Assembly (NCBI GenBank): GCA_005116745.1
Contig: SWDS01000006.1
Location: 82,935-146,934 of the forward strand
Source: Nitrospira sp.
Lineage (GTDB): Bacteria > Nitrospirota > Nitrospiria > Nitrospirales > Nitrospiraceae
DNA: 64,000 nucleotides
Reading direction: 5' to 3'
The notes beneath the pieces were generated by a model. That model made no database searches. It was not told the DNA's origin and worked only from the letters and a program-made list of their open reading frames with translations. Below, piece after piece: positions 5,454-62,963 of this stretch (the first letter of the stretch is position 1; every line of letters starts with the position of its first letter). A program made the position numbers and the translations under genes.

Positions 5454-5635
5454 ATCTGTGGAAGCAACGACGCCTGTTCGTCTGTACCGGCTGTGGGGAA
5501 AAGCTGCTTCATGATGCGATGTACCTGCACAGCTTGTTCACCTGTCCTCAGCGACCACGGACGCCGAAACAGATCCTAGAACACTTCTTACTAACTGGCC
5601 GGACGTATTGCCCCACCCCGGAGCGGACGCAATGA
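5450..5635 (+). CDS. small Cys-rich protein of the element
   Basis: 61 residues. The ATG overlaps the preceding stop codon by four bases. It has a CxxC pair (FVCTGCGEK), then 'MYLHSLFTCPQRP' with a further His and Cys spaced like a single zinc finger, and one more Cys near the end. Probably a small zinc-binding, nucleic-acid-associated protein; no family is recognised. Confidence 0.6.
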   Translation: MNLWKQRRLFVCTGCGEKLLHDAMYLHSLFTCPQRPRTPKQILEHFLLTGRTYCPTPERTQ

Positions 5636-25995: not shown

Positions 25996-26679
25996 ATGAG
26001 AATTCTGCTCGTTGAAGACGACGCCGATCTGGCTCAATTCATCAGAAGAGGATTGAAAGAGGAGCACTATGTGGTGGACGTGGCCGCCGACGGTGAAGAA
26101 GGCTTGGCATTGGCGTTGGGTAACGCGTACGATCTGCTGATCTTGGACATTATGCTCCCCAAGCTTGACGGCCTCACCCTCTGCCGCCGTGTTCGAGACA
26201 AGGGATTCATGACTCCGGTGTTGCTTCTGACCGCGCGCAACACGGTGGAGGACAAGGTGTCGGGGTTTGATACCGGCGCAGACCAATTTCTGCCGAAACC
26301 GTTCGCGTTCGTGGAACTGCTGGCTCAAATCCGGGCCCTCTTGCGCCGAGGAAGTCAGCAACCACTGGTCCATCTCCAAGCAGCAGATCTAAAGCTGGAT
26401 CCGGCTTCTCATCGTGTCTGGCGGGCAGGACAAGAAATCGCTCTGACAAATAAAGAGTACGCCCTGCTTGAGTTTCTCTTGCGAAACAAGAACCGTGTGC
26501 TTACGCGAACCGCGATCATTGAACATGTGTGGGATATCAGCTATGACCCCATGACGAACATCGTCGACGCTCATATTCGAGCCTTGCGTGCGAAGATCGA
26601 CCGGGATTTTTCTCCGCCTTTGATCGCAACAGTCCGCGGCGCAGGGTACATGCTTGAGGAGCCGGACTCATCGGCATGA
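25996..26679 (+). CDS. OmpR-family response regulator
   Basis: 227 residues. Receiver domain with the acidic pair 'LLVEDDADL', phosphoacceptor Asp in 'DLLILDIMLPKLDG' (about residue 51), Thr in 'LLLTARNTV' and Lys in 'FLPKPFAF'. The C-terminal winged helix (about 130-225) has 'LTNKEYALLEFLLRNKNRVLTRTAIIEHVWD' and 'VDAHIRALRAKIDR', the DNA-recognition and wing segments of OmpR/PhoB. Closest in style to CusR/IrlR-like metal or stress regulators. It overlaps the sensor kinase gene by four bases. The peptide genes downstream carry 11-base-phased repeats expected for such a regulator. Confidence 0.95.
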   Translation: MRILLVEDDADLAQFIRRGLKEEHYVVDVAADGEEGLALALGNAYDLLILDIMLPKLDGLTLCRRVRDKGFMTPVLLLTARNTVEDKVSGFDTGADQFLPKPFAFVELLAQIRALLRRGSQQPLVHLQAADLKLDPASHRVWRAGQEIALTNKEYALLEFLLRNKNRVLTRTAIIEHVWDISYDPMTNIVDAHIRALRAKIDRDFSPPLIATVRGAGYMLEEPDSSA

Positions 26680-28097
26680 AATCTCTACGCAGTTTGATCA
26701 GTTGGTCCGCCTTCGTCTTGATGGCAGGACTCATCTTGTTTTCCGCGCTCGTGTACGCGGTGAGCGAGGTTCTGCTGCATCGTTTTGTGGATGGACAACT
26801 CTTCGCGTTGGCAGAGACGCTTGCCCAGATCGTGGAGCAGCACCCCGAAATACTCACGCGAAGGGCTCAGGGCGGCGCACTGACCGCCGACGTGCGGCAT
26901 TCCTATGAGCTTCCGGAAGTGCCGCATTCTCTTCAAGTGTTTTCTCCAGACGGTCGGCTCATCTGGACAAGTTCCAACACAGCAGCGCCACCTTCAATTC
27001 CAGCTGACGTGCTTCAACGAGTCGAGCGTGACCACACGGTGTTTGAAACGGTTGACTCGACCAGTGTCCCGGCTCGACACGTATATCTGTCTACCGTACA
27101 AGACGGCCAACTGCGGTATGTTCTGCAGGCACAAACCTCGCTGCTTCATTACCGGGAAACTCTGAATGGCCTTGTGTTTCTGCTCGCCCTCGGGTCCGGA
27201 GCGACGCTGCTTGTCGCCTGGGTCGGCAGCCTCTGGTTGGCAAAGAAGGTGTTGGCCCCAATCGACGCGTTGTGCACGGGCGCCGAAACGATGTCGGAAA
27301 CCGATCTGGGGAAGCGCCTGGCGATGGATTCACCCTATCGAGAATTTCGGCGACTCACCCAGGCGGTCAACTCCGTCTTGGATCAGTTCCAACGCAGTAG
27401 CGAGGTCCAACGGAACTTCTGCGAGATCGCCGCCCATGAGATGAAGACCCCTCTGACCATCCTGCAGGGAAACCTGGAAGTGGCGCTTATGAAAGCGAGG
27501 ACCCCGGAAGAATATCATGAAGTGTTACTCAACAATCTCCAGCAAGTGGATCGGCTCATCGCCTTGACTCGTCCACTCTTGACGCTCGCGAAATTCACTA
27601 GTAGTAAACCTCCGGTCAATCTCCTCCCGCTCGCCGTGGAACCTCTGATTCAAGACCTCGTGGATGAGTTGATGCTATTGGCGGATGACCGTCAGATCAC
27701 CTTGCGGTTTGAATCCCAACCGATTCCCGTCGTACTCGGCGATGCTCAGTGGCTCAAACAAGCATTGATCAATTTACTCGACAATGCGCTGCGGTACACT
27801 CCATCCGGTGGAGCCGTGACCATCCGCCTACAGGCCGTTGGTCACGATGTGACAGTGGCGGTCGAAGACACAGGCCACGGAATCGAACCCGAGAATATTC
27901 CCCATCTGTTCGAGCGATTCTACCGCACCGATTGGGCCAGGGCGAAAGATTCCGCTGGTACCGGGCTTGGACTTCCTATCGTGAAGGAAATCATGGAAGC
28001 CCACGGCGGGAGCATATCCGTCACGAGCGAAGTGAACAAAGGTTCCGTCTTCACACTGCGTCTCCCGGCCCTCGCCCAGCAAAAGGCGCTCGCCTAA
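26676..28097 (+). CDS. sensor histidine kinase
   Basis: 473 residues. First membrane segment at about 8-28 and second at about 165-187 enclose a periplasmic sensor of about 135 residues. HAMP linker follows (WLAKKVLAPIDALCTGAETMSETDLGKRL). The dimerisation helix has the phospho-His in 'FCEIAAHEMKTPLTILQG'; the ATPase domain has N box 'INLLDNALRYTPSGGAV', G1 'VEDTGHGIEP' and G2 'GTGLGLPIV'. Partner of the response regulator that it overlaps. Stimulus unknown; no metal-resistance genes adjoin. Confidence 0.95.
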   Translation: MKSLRSLISWSAFVLMAGLILFSALVYAVSEVLLHRFVDGQLFALAETLAQIVEQHPEILTRRAQGGALTADVRHSYELPEVPHSLQVFSPDGRLIWTSSNTAAPPSIPADVLQRVERDHTVFETVDSTSVPARHVYLSTVQDGQLRYVLQAQTSLLHYRETLNGLVFLLALGSGATLLVAWVGSLWLAKKVLAPIDALCTGAETMSETDLGKRLAMDSPYREFRRLTQAVNSVLDQFQRSSEVQRNFCEIAAHEMKTPLTILQGNLEVALMKARTPEEYHEVLLNNLQQVDRLIALTRPLLTLAKFTSSKPPVNLLPLAVEPLIQDLVDELMLLADDRQITLRFESQPIPVVLGDAQWLKQALINLLDNALRYTPSGGAVTIRLQAVGHDVTVAVEDTGHGIEPENIPHLFERFYRTDWARAKDSAGTGLGLPIVKEIMEAHGGSISVTSEVNKGSVFTLRLPALAQQKALA

Positions 28098-28224: not shown

Positions 28225-28281
28225 ATCATGAAGAACTCTTCACGATCCCCTCATGGAAGCTTCATCTTGGTGGCATATATA
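28225..28281 (+). promoter_or_regulatory. operator/promoter of micro-peptide 1
   Basis: ATCATGAAGA (28225-28234) is followed by TCA triplets at 28240, 28251 and 28262, exactly 11 bases apart, and a -10 like TATATA at 28276-28281. The same arrangement, with identical spacing, precedes the second peptide gene. Eleven-base-phased direct repeats reaching into the -35 region are the usual target of OmpR-type activators. Confidence 0.65.
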
Positions 28282-28313
28282 GGTAGGAAAGCGAAAGGGG
28301 GTGAACAACAATC

Positions 28314-28394
28314 ATGATTTCCTTTATCGAAGTGTTCTTATTGGCCGCCATATTCGGAGTGTTATACGCGATGCTGCAACTTTCGAGCCGGTGA
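28314..28394 (+). CDS. 26-residue single-span membrane peptide (copy 1)
   Basis: ATG at 28314, TGA at 28392, with a GGGGGTGA ribosome site 10 bases upstream. One hydrophobic helix covers nearly the whole peptide (core LLAAIFGVLY), ending in a polar SSR tail. It is an ungapped paralogue of the peptide at 28888: G, V and Y of the core and several hydrophobic positions coincide. Size and layout recall KdpF-like regulatory micro-proteins, but no kdp genes are near. It lies behind a two-component system with a matching operator, so it is probably one of its outputs. Confidence 0.7.
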   Translation: MISFIEVFLLAAIFGVLYAMLQLSSR

Positions 28395-28801
28395 TCCCAC
28401 TCGGATGATGCTGTGGAGTGACCTGCTGGAGACGGGGGCTGGGCAGAGAGGGTCATGCTTGCCAGTCACGTACGCACTTGTGACTCATGCTCGCCCCCGA
28501 CAGAGGAAGTGGTTTCCACATGGTCTGTGAGTCATGCTGTGATCTCGGTTAGTCAGACCTGCAACATCACAGGCGTCTGGTTCGGTCTCACCCTGAGCCC
28601 TTGTTAGTTCGCAGATCCCGATCAGACTGGTCATGCAGTCTGGTAACGCCCTCATCATCCTACAAGTTAGTCCCTGCGTGAGATCTACGGCTTTCTAGAC
28701 ACGGCCTCATTGTTCGGGCAGTTCGTCTTCCAATAGTTTCACGATATTCATCACTTACTGGTGTCACTCGCCGATCAGCTGGCACGTGTTTCGGTCGCCG
28801 A
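28395..28801. other. spacer between the two micro-peptide units
   Basis: No gene is seen. Several hairpins are present: AGTCAC / GTGACT near 28460-28485, and CAGACTG (28623-28629) with CAGTCTG (28636-28642). They could end the first transcript or be part of a non-coding RNA; no T-run is attached. Confidence 0.4.
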
Positions 28802-28858
28802 ATCATGAAGACTTCTTCATAATTTCATCACAGACCCTTCATAGTCGAGAGCTATACT
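28802..28858 (+). promoter_or_regulatory. operator/promoter of micro-peptide 2
   Basis: ATCATGAAGA (28802-28811), TCA triplets at 28817, 28828 and 28839, and TATACT at 28853-28858. Every distance is the same as in the copy at 28225-28281, including 14 bases from the first to the second element and from the last TCA to the -10 box. Confidence 0.65.
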
Positions 28859-28887
28859 TTTCATCAGGTGAAAGGAGGTGAAGATCC

Positions 28888-28971
28888 ATGATGACGATAT
28901 TCTTTGCGTTGCTCGCCCTGACTGCTGTTCTTGGAGTGATGTATAAGGCCGTATATCTTGACCGTGAATAG
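28888..28971 (+). CDS. 27-residue single-span membrane peptide (copy 2)
   Basis: ATG at 28888 (a second ATG follows at once), TAG at 28969, with an ideal AAAGGAGGTGA ribosome site seven bases upstream. One hydrophobic helix (core ALTAVLGVMY) and a charged end (YLDRE). It aligns without gaps to the 26-residue peptide at 28314. The very strong ribosome site argues that this is a real gene. Role unknown; small membrane helices of this type usually bind and tune a larger membrane protein, possibly the neighbouring sensor kinase. Confidence 0.75.
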   Translation: MMTIFFALLALTAVLGVMYKAVYLDRE

Positions 28972-28985
28972 TTAAGGAGAACCGT

Positions 28986-29011
28986 CTCCTCTCTCGACTA
29001 GAGAAGAGGAG
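28986..29011 (+). terminator. hairpin after micro-peptide 2
   Basis: CTCCTCTCTC (28986-28995) pairs with GAGAAGAGGAG (29001-29011) around a 5-base loop with one bulge, 15 bases after the peptide stop. No long T-run follows, so termination is likely but not certain. Confidence 0.5.
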
Positions 29012-29204
29012 GCCGTTGCTCCTTCGAGGTAAGACACCGAGCAGCCGCTCATACCGACACAGCTGCCCACACCGTCTATGGCATCCGCCACCCATGGGCT
29101 GGGCGTGGTACGATTTCCAGGTTGTGTCGGCCGAGTTCGTTAGGGTGAAAGCGGAGGGGATTCTTGATCGTCAACGCGCGTTGACCAAAGATGGAATTTC
29201 CACC

Positions 29205-60613: not shown

Positions 60614-60794
60614 CAAGGCTGTTCAACGTCGTCTCACACCTCAATATCCGTGACGGCGACAGAGATCAACATGAGTTTTTCCGCAGCCTGCTAAGTCCCC
60701 GCTTCGTGACGAGTGAGAGCCACTGTACCCTTCAAGATTCACAGTCATCGGTCTGGTATAATCACCCCGCTGCTCAATATTTGTTGGGGTGTGT
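60614..60794 (+). promoter_or_regulatory. upstream region of the second two-component system
   Basis: A consensus -10 TATAAT lies at 60757-60762, about 33 bases before the response-regulator start. A matching -35 is not obvious, which would fit an activated promoter. Nothing else is seen. Confidence 0.45.
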
Positions 60795-61466
60795 ATGCGC
60801 GTGCTTGTCATAGAAGATGAAACCAAAGTCGGTTGTTTTATTAAGCGGGCTCTCGAAGAAGAGAGCTATGCCGTCGACCTCTTTGAGGACGGTGCCAAGG
60901 GATTGGAAATGGCCCTGGCGACCAACTATGACCTCTTGGTCGTCGACGTGATGCTGCCCTCCATGTCTGGTCTGGATGTGCTGAAGAATATTCGTCGCGA
61001 ACGGGTCCACACACCGGTGCTGATTCTCTCGGCGCAATCCCAGATCGACCAGCGGGTCAAAGGATTGGATGCTGGCGCCGATGATTATCTGACCAAACCG
61101 TTCGCGATCGATGAACTCTTGGCGCGTGTTCGAGCCCTGTTGCGTCGTGGAGCATCTGAAAGCCCTGGAATTCTACAGGTGGATGATCTGATGCTCAATC
61201 CGGCAACCCGTGATGTCACCCGGGGTGGGCAACGCATCGATTTGACGCTGAAAGAGTATGCCTTACTTGAATATCTGATGCGTCACACCGGCCGCGTCCT
61301 CACTCGGCCCATGATCTCCGAACATGTGTGGAATCAAGACTTCGACACCTTTACGAACGTCATCGATGTCTATGTGAACTACCTTCGGAACAAAATCGAT
61401 CGAGGCCGAACCAAGAAACTGATCCATACCATTCGCGGTAGCGGGTATATGCTGAAGGCCGACTAG
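60795..61466 (+). CDS. OmpR-family response regulator
   Basis: 223 residues from the ATG at 60795 (a GTG six bases earlier is possible). Receiver: 'VLVIEDETKV', phospho-Asp in 'DLLVVDVMLPSMSG', 'ILSAQSQID', 'YLTKPFAI'. The DNA-binding winged helix has 'LTLKEYALLEYLMRHTGRVLTRPMISEHVW' and 'VYVNYLRNKIDRG'. It is followed after 93 bases by its sensor kinase, and then by an HtrA protease gene whose promoter has a TTAATC direct repeat with 11-base spacing. Confidence 0.95.
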   Translation: MRVLVIEDETKVGCFIKRALEEESYAVDLFEDGAKGLEMALATNYDLLVVDVMLPSMSGLDVLKNIRRERVHTPVLILSAQSQIDQRVKGLDAGADDYLTKPFAIDELLARVRALLRRGASESPGILQVDDLMLNPATRDVTRGGQRIDLTLKEYALLEYLMRHTGRVLTRPMISEHVWNQDFDTFTNVIDVYVNYLRNKIDRGRTKKLIHTIRGSGYMLKAD

Positions 61467-61559
61467 CGTGAACCTGACACAGGCCCCGTGCGTACGCAGT
61501 GACTTGAGGCGCAGCGAACGGACGGCACGACGTCGTCACCACCGAGCAGGAGCTGATCC

Positions 61560-62963
61560 ATGCCGCTACGCGTCCGGCTGACCCTGTGGTATGGGACCGC
61601 CCTAGCCCTGGTCTTGATCATTTTCTCCGTCGTGCTGTACGCCATTACGGCGAGAAGTCTCCGCGACACCGTCGATGAATCGTTGGAAGATACGGCCATG
61701 ACGGCGGTGCGGTCGCTCGAAGAGCGAGGATTTCTTCCACTGATCAGCGAAGAGGAACTGCTCTCGCAATTTCCTGAACTGACGCGAATCGATAAGTTCT
61801 TCCAGATCTTCAGCCCCTCTGGCACGATCACGATCCGTTCTCCGAATATCAAACAACACGAAGTTCCGCTGAGCCGAACCGCCCTTGATGCCACGTTGGC
61901 CGGACAGAAAATTTTTGAGTCGGCCAAGTATCCTAAGGAGCCTCCGCTGAGGCTGATTTCCGTGCCGATCGTGTATCGAGGCAATCTCCTGTACATCGTG
62001 CAGGTCGGTACGTCGATGGAATCGGTTGGAGAGACACTCCAGCGCTTCCTGGTGCTGCTGGTTGTGGCAATCCCCATCGCCCTGGCTGTGTCTCTGGCAG
62101 GGGGATGGTTCTTGGCAGGACGCGCGTTACGGCCTGTCGATAAGATTACCCTTGCGGCGCAGCGCATTGCCGCTGGGGACTTGAGTCAACGCCTGAGCAT
62201 GCCGGCGGCTCACGACGAAATCGGCCGCCTGGCCGACACCTTCAATAATATGATTGGCCGACTGGATACGTCGTTTCGCCAGATTCGTCAATTCACCAGC
62301 GATGCCTCGCATGAGTTGCGGACTCCTCTGACGGTGATGAAAGGCGAAACAGACCTGGTGTTGCGGCGCCCTCGTTTGCTCGACGACTATAAATCGGTAC
62401 TGGAGAGCAATCTGGAAGAAATTGATCGAATGACGCGAATCGTCGACGAACTGTTGTTTCTCTCACGTGCCGACATGGGTGAAGTCAGAGTGGAGTCGCT
62501 GCCTGTCGCCATGGAGTCGCTGGTGGAGGATATTCATCGTCAGGCCAAGTTGCTTGCGCAGGACCGCCATATTGAAGTCCTGTTGGGAACCGTCATGCCA
62601 GTGGTGGTTCAGGGCGACGACTTGCGGCTTCGTGAGCTGCTGCTCAATCTCGTCGAGAATGCGATGAAGTATTCGCATTCTGACGGGAAGGTCGAGATCG
62701 CGCTGTTGAATGACGGTCGGGAGGCCAGGTTGTCGGTGACAGACCATGGGATCGGTATTGCCCCTGCTGATCATAAGAAGATTTTCCAACGCTTCTTCCG
62801 CACCGACGTTGCCCGAGGCCATACCAAGAAGGGGACGGGTCTCGGCCTCGCCATCTGTGCCTGGATTGCGGAGTTGCAGAAGGGCCGGATAGAAGTCAAA
62901 AGCGATCTTGGTCAGGGATCGACCTTCACCGTTGTCTTACCGCTCGCTCACCCCACTGCTTAG
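61560..62963 (+). CDS. sensor histidine kinase
   Basis: 467 residues. Membrane segments at about 8-28 and 160-182 bracket a periplasmic domain of about 130 residues; HAMP region 'GRALRPVDKITLAAQRIAAGDLSQRL' follows. Dimerisation helix with phospho-His in 'FTSDASHELRTPLTVMKG', N box 'LNLVENAMKYSHSDGKV', G1 'VTDHGIGIAP', G2 'GTGLGLAI'. Partner of the regulator before it; its neighbour is htrA, which suggests an envelope-stress input. Confidence 0.95.
   Translation: MPLRVRLTLWYGTALALVLIIFSVVLYAITARSLRDTVDESLEDTAMTAVRSLEERGFLPLISEEELLSQFPELTRIDKFFQIFSPSGTITIRSPNIKQHEVPLSRTALDATLAGQKIFESAKYPKEPPLRLISVPIVYRGNLLYIVQVGTSMESVGETLQRFLVLLVVAIPIALAVSLAGGWFLAGRALRPVDKITLAAQRIAAGDLSQRLSMPAAHDEIGRLADTFNNMIGRLDTSFRQIRQFTSDASHELRTPLTVMKGETDLVLRRPRLLDDYKSVLESNLEEIDRMTRIVDELLFLSRADMGEVRVESLPVAMESLVEDIHRQAKLLAQDRHIEVLLGTVMPVVVQGDDLRLRELLLNLVENAMKYSHSDGKVEIALLNDGREARLSVTDHGIGIAPADHKKIFQRFFRTDVARGHTKKGTGLGLAICAWIAELQKGRIEVKSDLGQGSTFTVVLPLAHPTA

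Follow-up and report, generated by a model that had tools for sequence, protein, structure and literature searches.

Twin single-helix micropeptide genes behind a conserved operator in a candidate copper-type regulon of comammox Nitrospira

What are two genes of only 26 and 27 codons doing behind a two-component system in Nitrospira, what controls them, and on what might their products act? We addressed these questions in a 64,000-nucleotide stretch of a Nitrospira sp. genome (contig SWDS01000006.1; hereafter the window), in which the two open reading frames, PEP-A and PEP-B, each encode one hydrophobic helix. An initial annotation, made from the sequence alone, had described them as paralogous genes with strong ribosome sites that follow a response regulator and a sensor kinase, and had guessed that the peptides feed back on the kinase or on a transporter. 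Both frames are present with exactly the translations it gave, the near-perfect ribosome sites are those it had pointed out, and an OmpR-family response regulator (RR) and a HAMP/HisKA sensor histidine kinase (HK) lie directly upstream (Table 1).

Table 1. Features of the PEP-A/PEP-B locus, in coordinates of the window.
Feature	Position	Strand	Description
OmpR-family response regulator (RR)	25996..26679	+	best NCBIfam match cztR_silR_copR (heavy-metal), below cut-off
HAMP/HisKA sensor histidine kinase (HK)	26676..28097	+	best NCBIfam match cztS_silS_copS, below cut-off
PEP-A operator (predicted)	28228..28265	+	ATGAAGAACTCTTCA palindrome and TTCA repeats, 11-bp spacing; 0 mismatches to genus consensus
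PEP-A predicted -10 element	28276..28281	+	TATATA; starts 10 nt after the operator's last half-site
PEP-A ribosome-binding site	28293..28304	+	GAAAGGGGGTGA
PEP-A micropeptide ORF	28314..28394	+	MISFIEVFLLAAIFGVLYAMLQLSSR, 26 aa, single helix
PEP-B operator (predicted)	28805..28842	+	0 mismatches to genus consensus
PEP-B predicted -10 element	28853..28858	+	TATACT; aligned promoter positions
PEP-B ribosome-binding site	28870..28881	+	GAAAGGAGGTGA
PEP-B micropeptide ORF	28888..28971	+	MMTIFFALLALTAVLGVMYKAVYLDRE, 27 aa, single helix
Strong hairpin 3' of PEP-B	28974..29024	+	possible terminator without T tract (folding)

Conservation of the frame and an excess of synonymous change in relatives indicate that the two frames are genes rather than chance, as had been proposed. 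A search of 59 related genomes recovered orthologues of PEP-A, and likewise of PEP-B, in many genomes of the same genus, with identities of up to 96% and no internal stops, so that the frame is kept across Nitrospira. Dozens of distinct PEP-A and PEP-B coding sequences gave a pN/pS of 0.21-0.27 and a median dN/dS of 0.12-0.19, and codon position 3 holds 53-61% of their differences. Several genomes keep PEP-A without PEP-B, and the two are therefore not an obligate pair. Neither peptide gave a significant match in Pfam, NCBIfam, PHROGs or PDB sequence searches; as no Pfam or NCBIfam match appeared even at E<=1, by these profiles they are not KdpF, CydX, AcrZ or members of other named micro-subunit families. 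The region of the hairpin behind PEP-B (28965-29040) folds with a minimum free energy of -31.6 kcal/mol (z -3.0).

What the initial annotation had missed is an almost invariant 38-bp box upstream of each peptide, ATGAAGAnnTCTTCAY-N7-TCAY-N6-TTCAT, in which a palindrome with a two-base centre is combined with TTCA-type half-sites every 11 bp, a repeat spacing known for OmpR/PhoB-family sites. Exactly two copies occur in the window, one per peptide, against an expected 0.01 at up to three mismatches, and the box is found in 47 of the 59 genus genomes, with a reversed-pattern control that returned 0 in all of them. With the box as the only query, a scan of 84,980 genomes of bacteria and archaea yielded 76 stretches, nearly all from Nitrospira or Nitrospirales; most of the sites lie 41-53 nt 5' of an ORF that specifies one hydrophobic helix in 24-32 residues. 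When 77 distinct sites that precede ORFs of peptide size are aligned, positions 49-50, which fall 10 nt past the last half-site, read T and A with 98-100% conservation, and these positions lay outside the pattern used to search for the box. By its placement, this pair is a predicted -10 element standing where PhoB-type activation expects one; no sigma70-type -35/-10 pair was found at the peptide promoters.

The window's own genome has six matches to the core pattern, two of which (L082 and L083) look like chance, with low matrix scores and, for L082, a position inside a coding frame. A few box matches come from records assigned by name to other phyla. Among them, a record with the label Obscuribacterales has a peptide of class D (see below) and may be a mislabelled bin, and two from Chloroflexi (L213, L244) have operator-like boxes with the same 11-bp repeats 5' of lipoprotein genes, which may reflect chance, convergence or a common regulator type. 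In other Nitrospirales (L197, L202, L235, L241), similar boxes stand 5' of nucleotidyltransferase-like genes, targets that suggest a differently composed regulon in sister lineages.

Which regulator would read this box? Of the 59 genus genomes, 43 encode an RR ortholog with 80% identity or more, and the operator was found in 42 of these 43 compared to 5 of the other 16 (Fisher p 1.7e-7, a value that ignores shared ancestry), a positive outcome for the co-occurrence of peptides and regulator that the initial annotation had proposed to check. A same-strand box lies within 3.5 kb downstream of RR at 35 of the 43 loci and on the same contig at 5.5-12.5 kb at 4 more, and a micropeptide ORF stands behind the box at those RR loci, part of the total, whose sequence was read. 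Genomes G033 and G075 represent one lineage in which the box precedes a PepSY-RR-HK operon; their RR homologue is 67-68% identical to ours, and the position of the operator 5' of the PepSY gene next to RR, an apparent autoregulation, ties the operator to this type of RR. No micropeptide was found with the operator in these two genomes. From co-occurrence and proximity, we strongly infer that the box belongs to the adjacent copper-type regulator. Each genome encodes many OmpR-family regulators, and related Pseudomonas copper/zinc regulators use one common box (PMC11195947), as would be expected if one or more other members of the family owned the operator; the co-occurrence with RR and the box beside the same RR type in G033 and G075 make that assignment very unlikely. 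At 60789-62963 (+), the window also holds a second OmpR-type regulator, which shares 50% identity with the first, and behind it an ORF of 467 aa that is presumably its kinase.

RR scored 257.4 bits against TIGR01387, the best of all models but below the curated cut-off of 279.2 bits, and HK scored 250.5 bits against TIGR01386, below its cut-off of 292.55 bits. Across 18 HK orthologues, periplasmic His84 and His158 are invariant, and no conserved periplasmic Met or Cys was found. Our best guess is that HK responds to a copper-type signal, because the heavy-metal models score best, the box has the layout of a CusR box, and the predicted regulon includes a PmoD relative and a copper-enzyme subunit, as described below. 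The shortfall of both proteins against the heavy-metal cut-offs, together with the lack of conserved periplasmic Met or Cys, makes copper no more than a candidate signal.

RR and ammonia-monooxygenase (AMO) genes tend to occur together. Of the sampled Nitrospira genomes, 42 of the 45 that have AMO genes encode a near ortholog of RR, versus 1 of the 14 that lack them, counts that are not corrected for phylogeny. Counted from the regulator, amoA or amoC is present in 42 of the 43 genomes with RR versus 3 of the 16 without (p 1.8e-9, again ignoring shared ancestry), and in 25 of 26 versus 2 of 9 when only genomes at least 90% complete are considered. The gene content of the window's genome, which includes amoA (G000:C8:50735), marks it as a comammox Nitrospira, a group that fares well when copper is low (PMC13374858). 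The operator is not a general mark of AMO genes, an idea that we rejected since the main amo cluster of the window's genome and most other lone amoC copies checked lack it.

Some boxes precede larger genes. One encodes a 220-aa PmoD/AmoD-like protein with a signal-like segment, a C-terminal hydrophobic segment and two conserved Cys, which matches PmoD (PDB 6CPD, E 1.6e-6). The CuA motif of PmoD is Cx7MxHxnC (PMC6189053), and its Met is Leu in the PmoD-like protein tested and Leu or another non-Met residue in relatives. The N-terminus of the PmoD-like protein resembles PEP-B (MMTIFIAIVALSII..., MMTVLLMMAALSALAGVMYRV...): a PEP-B query weakly retrieved two of these N-termini (E 0.02 and 0.45), and nucleotide alignment to PEP-B beat all 2000 mononucleotide shuffles in each of the three tested. 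In several genomes the next gene after the PmoD-like gene is a lone amoC (PF04896, E 1e-105). The window's own genome has a box at G000:C6:544949 (L137:3450-3805) followed by an ORF that starts MAS and ends DPFPSQVNPNAKAGY, which are the ends of AmoC; this lone amoC is broken by a run of 100 N, an apparent assembly gap that leaves its full length unreadable. One of the further lone amoC loci in G024 has a weaker site (score 24.7). A strong operator also precedes a 106-aa protein without known family (MKNVTKGLTLSTS...) in several Nitrospira, including the window's genome (L136:3945-4265 (-), operator at G000:C2:541878).

A further gene behind the box encodes an Slp-family lipoprotein, and its 5' region is either a decayed PEP-B copy or a PEP-B ORF that runs into the gene. 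Such decay or fusion would be expected if the small ORFs were relics, translated leaders that travel with a promoter worth keeping. PEP-B at the home locus does not fit this view: its downstream neighbour, smpB, is encoded on the other strand, and selection on the peptide is strongly purifying. On these grounds we rejected a leader peptide there and take the peptide itself to be selected; as an account of the family, the relic reading is most improbable.

The peptides fall into four related classes, A (IEV-type), B (IFFALLALTAV-type), C (WIIEA/VIEV-type) and D (LIIGVLAV-type). The proposal that PEP-A and PEP-B are paralogues did not hold at the level of direct comparison, where a PEP-A HMM against PEP-B and the reverse gave scores no higher than those of shuffled decoys, and we rejected direct peptide-level homology on that basis. 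The proposal stands in an indirect form: profiles link A to C, C to D and D to B with each step above decoys, with the class D profile all decoys scored below both B and C, and the cassette of operator and ribosome site is duplicated, with 41 nt at 73% identity and 25 nt at 80% identity at the same 577-nt offset. The intermediates and the duplicated cassette support, without proving, common descent of the two peptides. Among 296 genomes drawn from the phylum, clear peptide-profile matches were confined to the genus. Copies of the peptides also occur at scattered loci that have no relation to AMO.

The family has expanded in one Nitrospira genome of two contigs, where G081:C1 has ten peptide-profile matches. 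A class C copy in the window's own genome (MTQWIIEALLLSAILGLTYTVLSLGRK; G000:C1:183798, L040:5790-5873 (-)) adjoins a polyphosphate kinase gene, a CBS-domain gene and a CHAD-like gene, and its relatives lie near PhoB-like and PstS-like genes (L072, L073, L076). This peptide has no operator and instead follows a different conserved stretch (TTCACACAGAATTnGCAC...), possibly the box of another regulator. In L073, the class C peptide is directly preceded by an extra hydrophobic ORF of 31 residues (~5480-5600 (+)), which has a strong ribosome site (MMTSSVVIVGTLVFVTVLGALVKVLAIMGRQ) and makes a second twin arrangement.

Conservation within PEP-A is position-specific. Glu6 and Ile13 are invariant in all 44 distinct variants, Tyr18, Met20 and Gln22 are each altered in only 2 of the 44, and Gly15 is also conserved; small residues form a stripe, A/G-xxx-G-xxx-A/G, and neither peptide contains Cys. 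The stripe, together with an invariant Glu within the membrane segment, suggests that PEP-A packs against a larger membrane protein. These six conserved positions argue for a specific contact and against a role in general stress, in which the induced peptides would change the membrane or respiration in the manner of YohP, TisB or DinQ, possibly slowing growth, with no dedicated partner. Their size and hydrophobicity would suit such a role, and two reports describe stress-induced small membrane proteins with metabolic or membrane effects (PMC12719787, PMC3567139), but on balance we regard it as quite improbable. The strong and open ribosome sites, a 5' structure of the PEP-A mRNA that is not unusual (z +1.2) and does not sequester, the absence of any Rfam hit and no sign of antisense control argue against a type I toxin.

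The reading that we favour, with somewhat less than even confidence, is that PEP-A and PEP-B are single-helix micropeptide genes, each with its own promoter, in a comammox copper-type regulon, and that their products have an accessory role for AMO or a copper protein. The sequence itself carries part of this reading: the conserved operator, the placement of the -10 element, the conservation of the coding sequences, and the joint occurrence of RR, operator and AMO genes. HK would sense a periplasmic metal or copper-redox signal, and phosphorylated RR would bind the palindrome and the 11-bp-spaced TTCA repeats, substitute for the missing -35 element, and activate PEP-A, PEP-B, the lone amoC, the PmoD/AmoD-like protein and some envelope lipoproteins. 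Among the least certain steps, each peptide may insert into the inner membrane as one helix, with its small-residue face and polar residues (Glu6 and Gln22 in PEP-A, Lys20 in PEP-B) packed against a polytopic protein. The likeliest partner would be AmoC/AMO or a protein that handles copper, which the peptide might serve as an accessory or assembly subunit, much as CydX and KdpF serve theirs. AMO and copper proteins are proposed as the class of partner chiefly because the PmoD-like protein encoded upstream of amoC has a PEP-B-like N-terminus, and this N-terminus, along with the operator common to amoC, favours peptides that assist AMO or the handling of copper. A narrower version, which we think unlikely as it stands, makes the peptides new single-helix subunits or assembly factors of comammox AMO or of its copper-delivery partner, made on demand under the copper-type two-component system with a spare AmoC and the PmoD-like protein for enzyme repair or remodelling. 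Counting against the favoured reading are the main amo cluster without an operator, the dispersed peptides at non-AMO loci, the absence of PEP-B from several genomes that keep PEP-A and the Met-less CuA motif.

The peptides' position beside a kinase raises the possibility of MgrB-like feedback, in which a peptide would bind the transmembrane region of HK and damp or raise signalling while other copies tune other sensors. The frequent placement of the box and, where read, of a peptide ORF behind RR is consistent with this possibility, as is the operator, by which the peptides would be targets of the same regulator, and published accounts describe small kinase modulators linked to two-component systems, namely MgrB (PMC8404706) and DUF1127 proteins with PhoR (PMC12501420). 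We nevertheless consider feedback doubtful, since a kinase as the only partner fits poorly with the dispersed copies, of which G081 alone has about ten profile matches, and with a PmoD-like protein whose N-terminus resembles PEP-B, the peptides lack the periplasmic part and the Cys of MgrB, and the distant RR homologues of G033 and G075 have the operator with no peptide found. The earlier view of real, single-helix peptides tied to RR and HK stands, and a wider regulon that it had not recognised, comprising a lone amoC, the PmoD-like protein and Slp, together with the PEP-B-like N-terminus, shifts some of the weight from kinase feedback towards the accessory role.

These data provide a concrete candidate for copper-type control of comammox ammonia oxidation, with a regulator, an exact box and targets. 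The regulon appears to be built largely from membrane peptides of 24-32 residues that multiply in copy number and are so small that annotation may miss them, and some copies appear to have had their promoter co-opted by other genes as the peptide decays. In the literature searched, no paper treats a copper-type regulator of ammonia oxidation in comammox Nitrospira, and none reports Nitrospira micropeptides or this regulon, which is weak evidence because many journals lay outside the search. Induction of tiny membrane proteins by a two-component system is a known theme, as with MgrB and others; the peptide family, its operator, the micropeptide-rich regulon and the tie to comammox ammonia oxidation are apparently unreported.

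MgrB, the feedback peptide of PhoQ, has about 47 residues, a periplasmic part and two cysteines. PEP-A and PEP-B resemble it as small single-helix membrane proteins in what is probably the regulon of the adjacent kinase, and differ in their length of 26-27 residues, their lack of Cys and of a periplasmic domain, and their several paralogues per genome. With KdpF and CydX they share a single helix of fewer than 40 residues with conserved polar and small residues, but they have no Pfam match and no operon with a presumed partner, save the PEP-B-like N-terminus on the PmoD-like protein. That protein in turn resembles PmoD/AmoD in its cysteines, its hydrophobic segments and its match to 6CPD, and departs from it in the extra PEP-B-like N-terminal helix and in the Leu that replaces the Met ligand of the CuA motif. 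RR and HK are most like CusRS, CopRS and CzcRS, whose models TIGR01387 and TIGR01386 they score best against, yet they remain below the family cut-offs, and in place of an efflux operon their predicted targets are micropeptides, a lone amoC and a PmoD-like protein. The box itself shares with the E. coli CusR box (AAAATGACAAnnTTGTCATTTT; PMC11195947) a palindrome with a 2-nt centre and an ATGA-N8-TCAT layout, and is distinguished from it by the half-site, ATGAAGA in place of ATGACAA, and by the additional 11-bp direct repeats.
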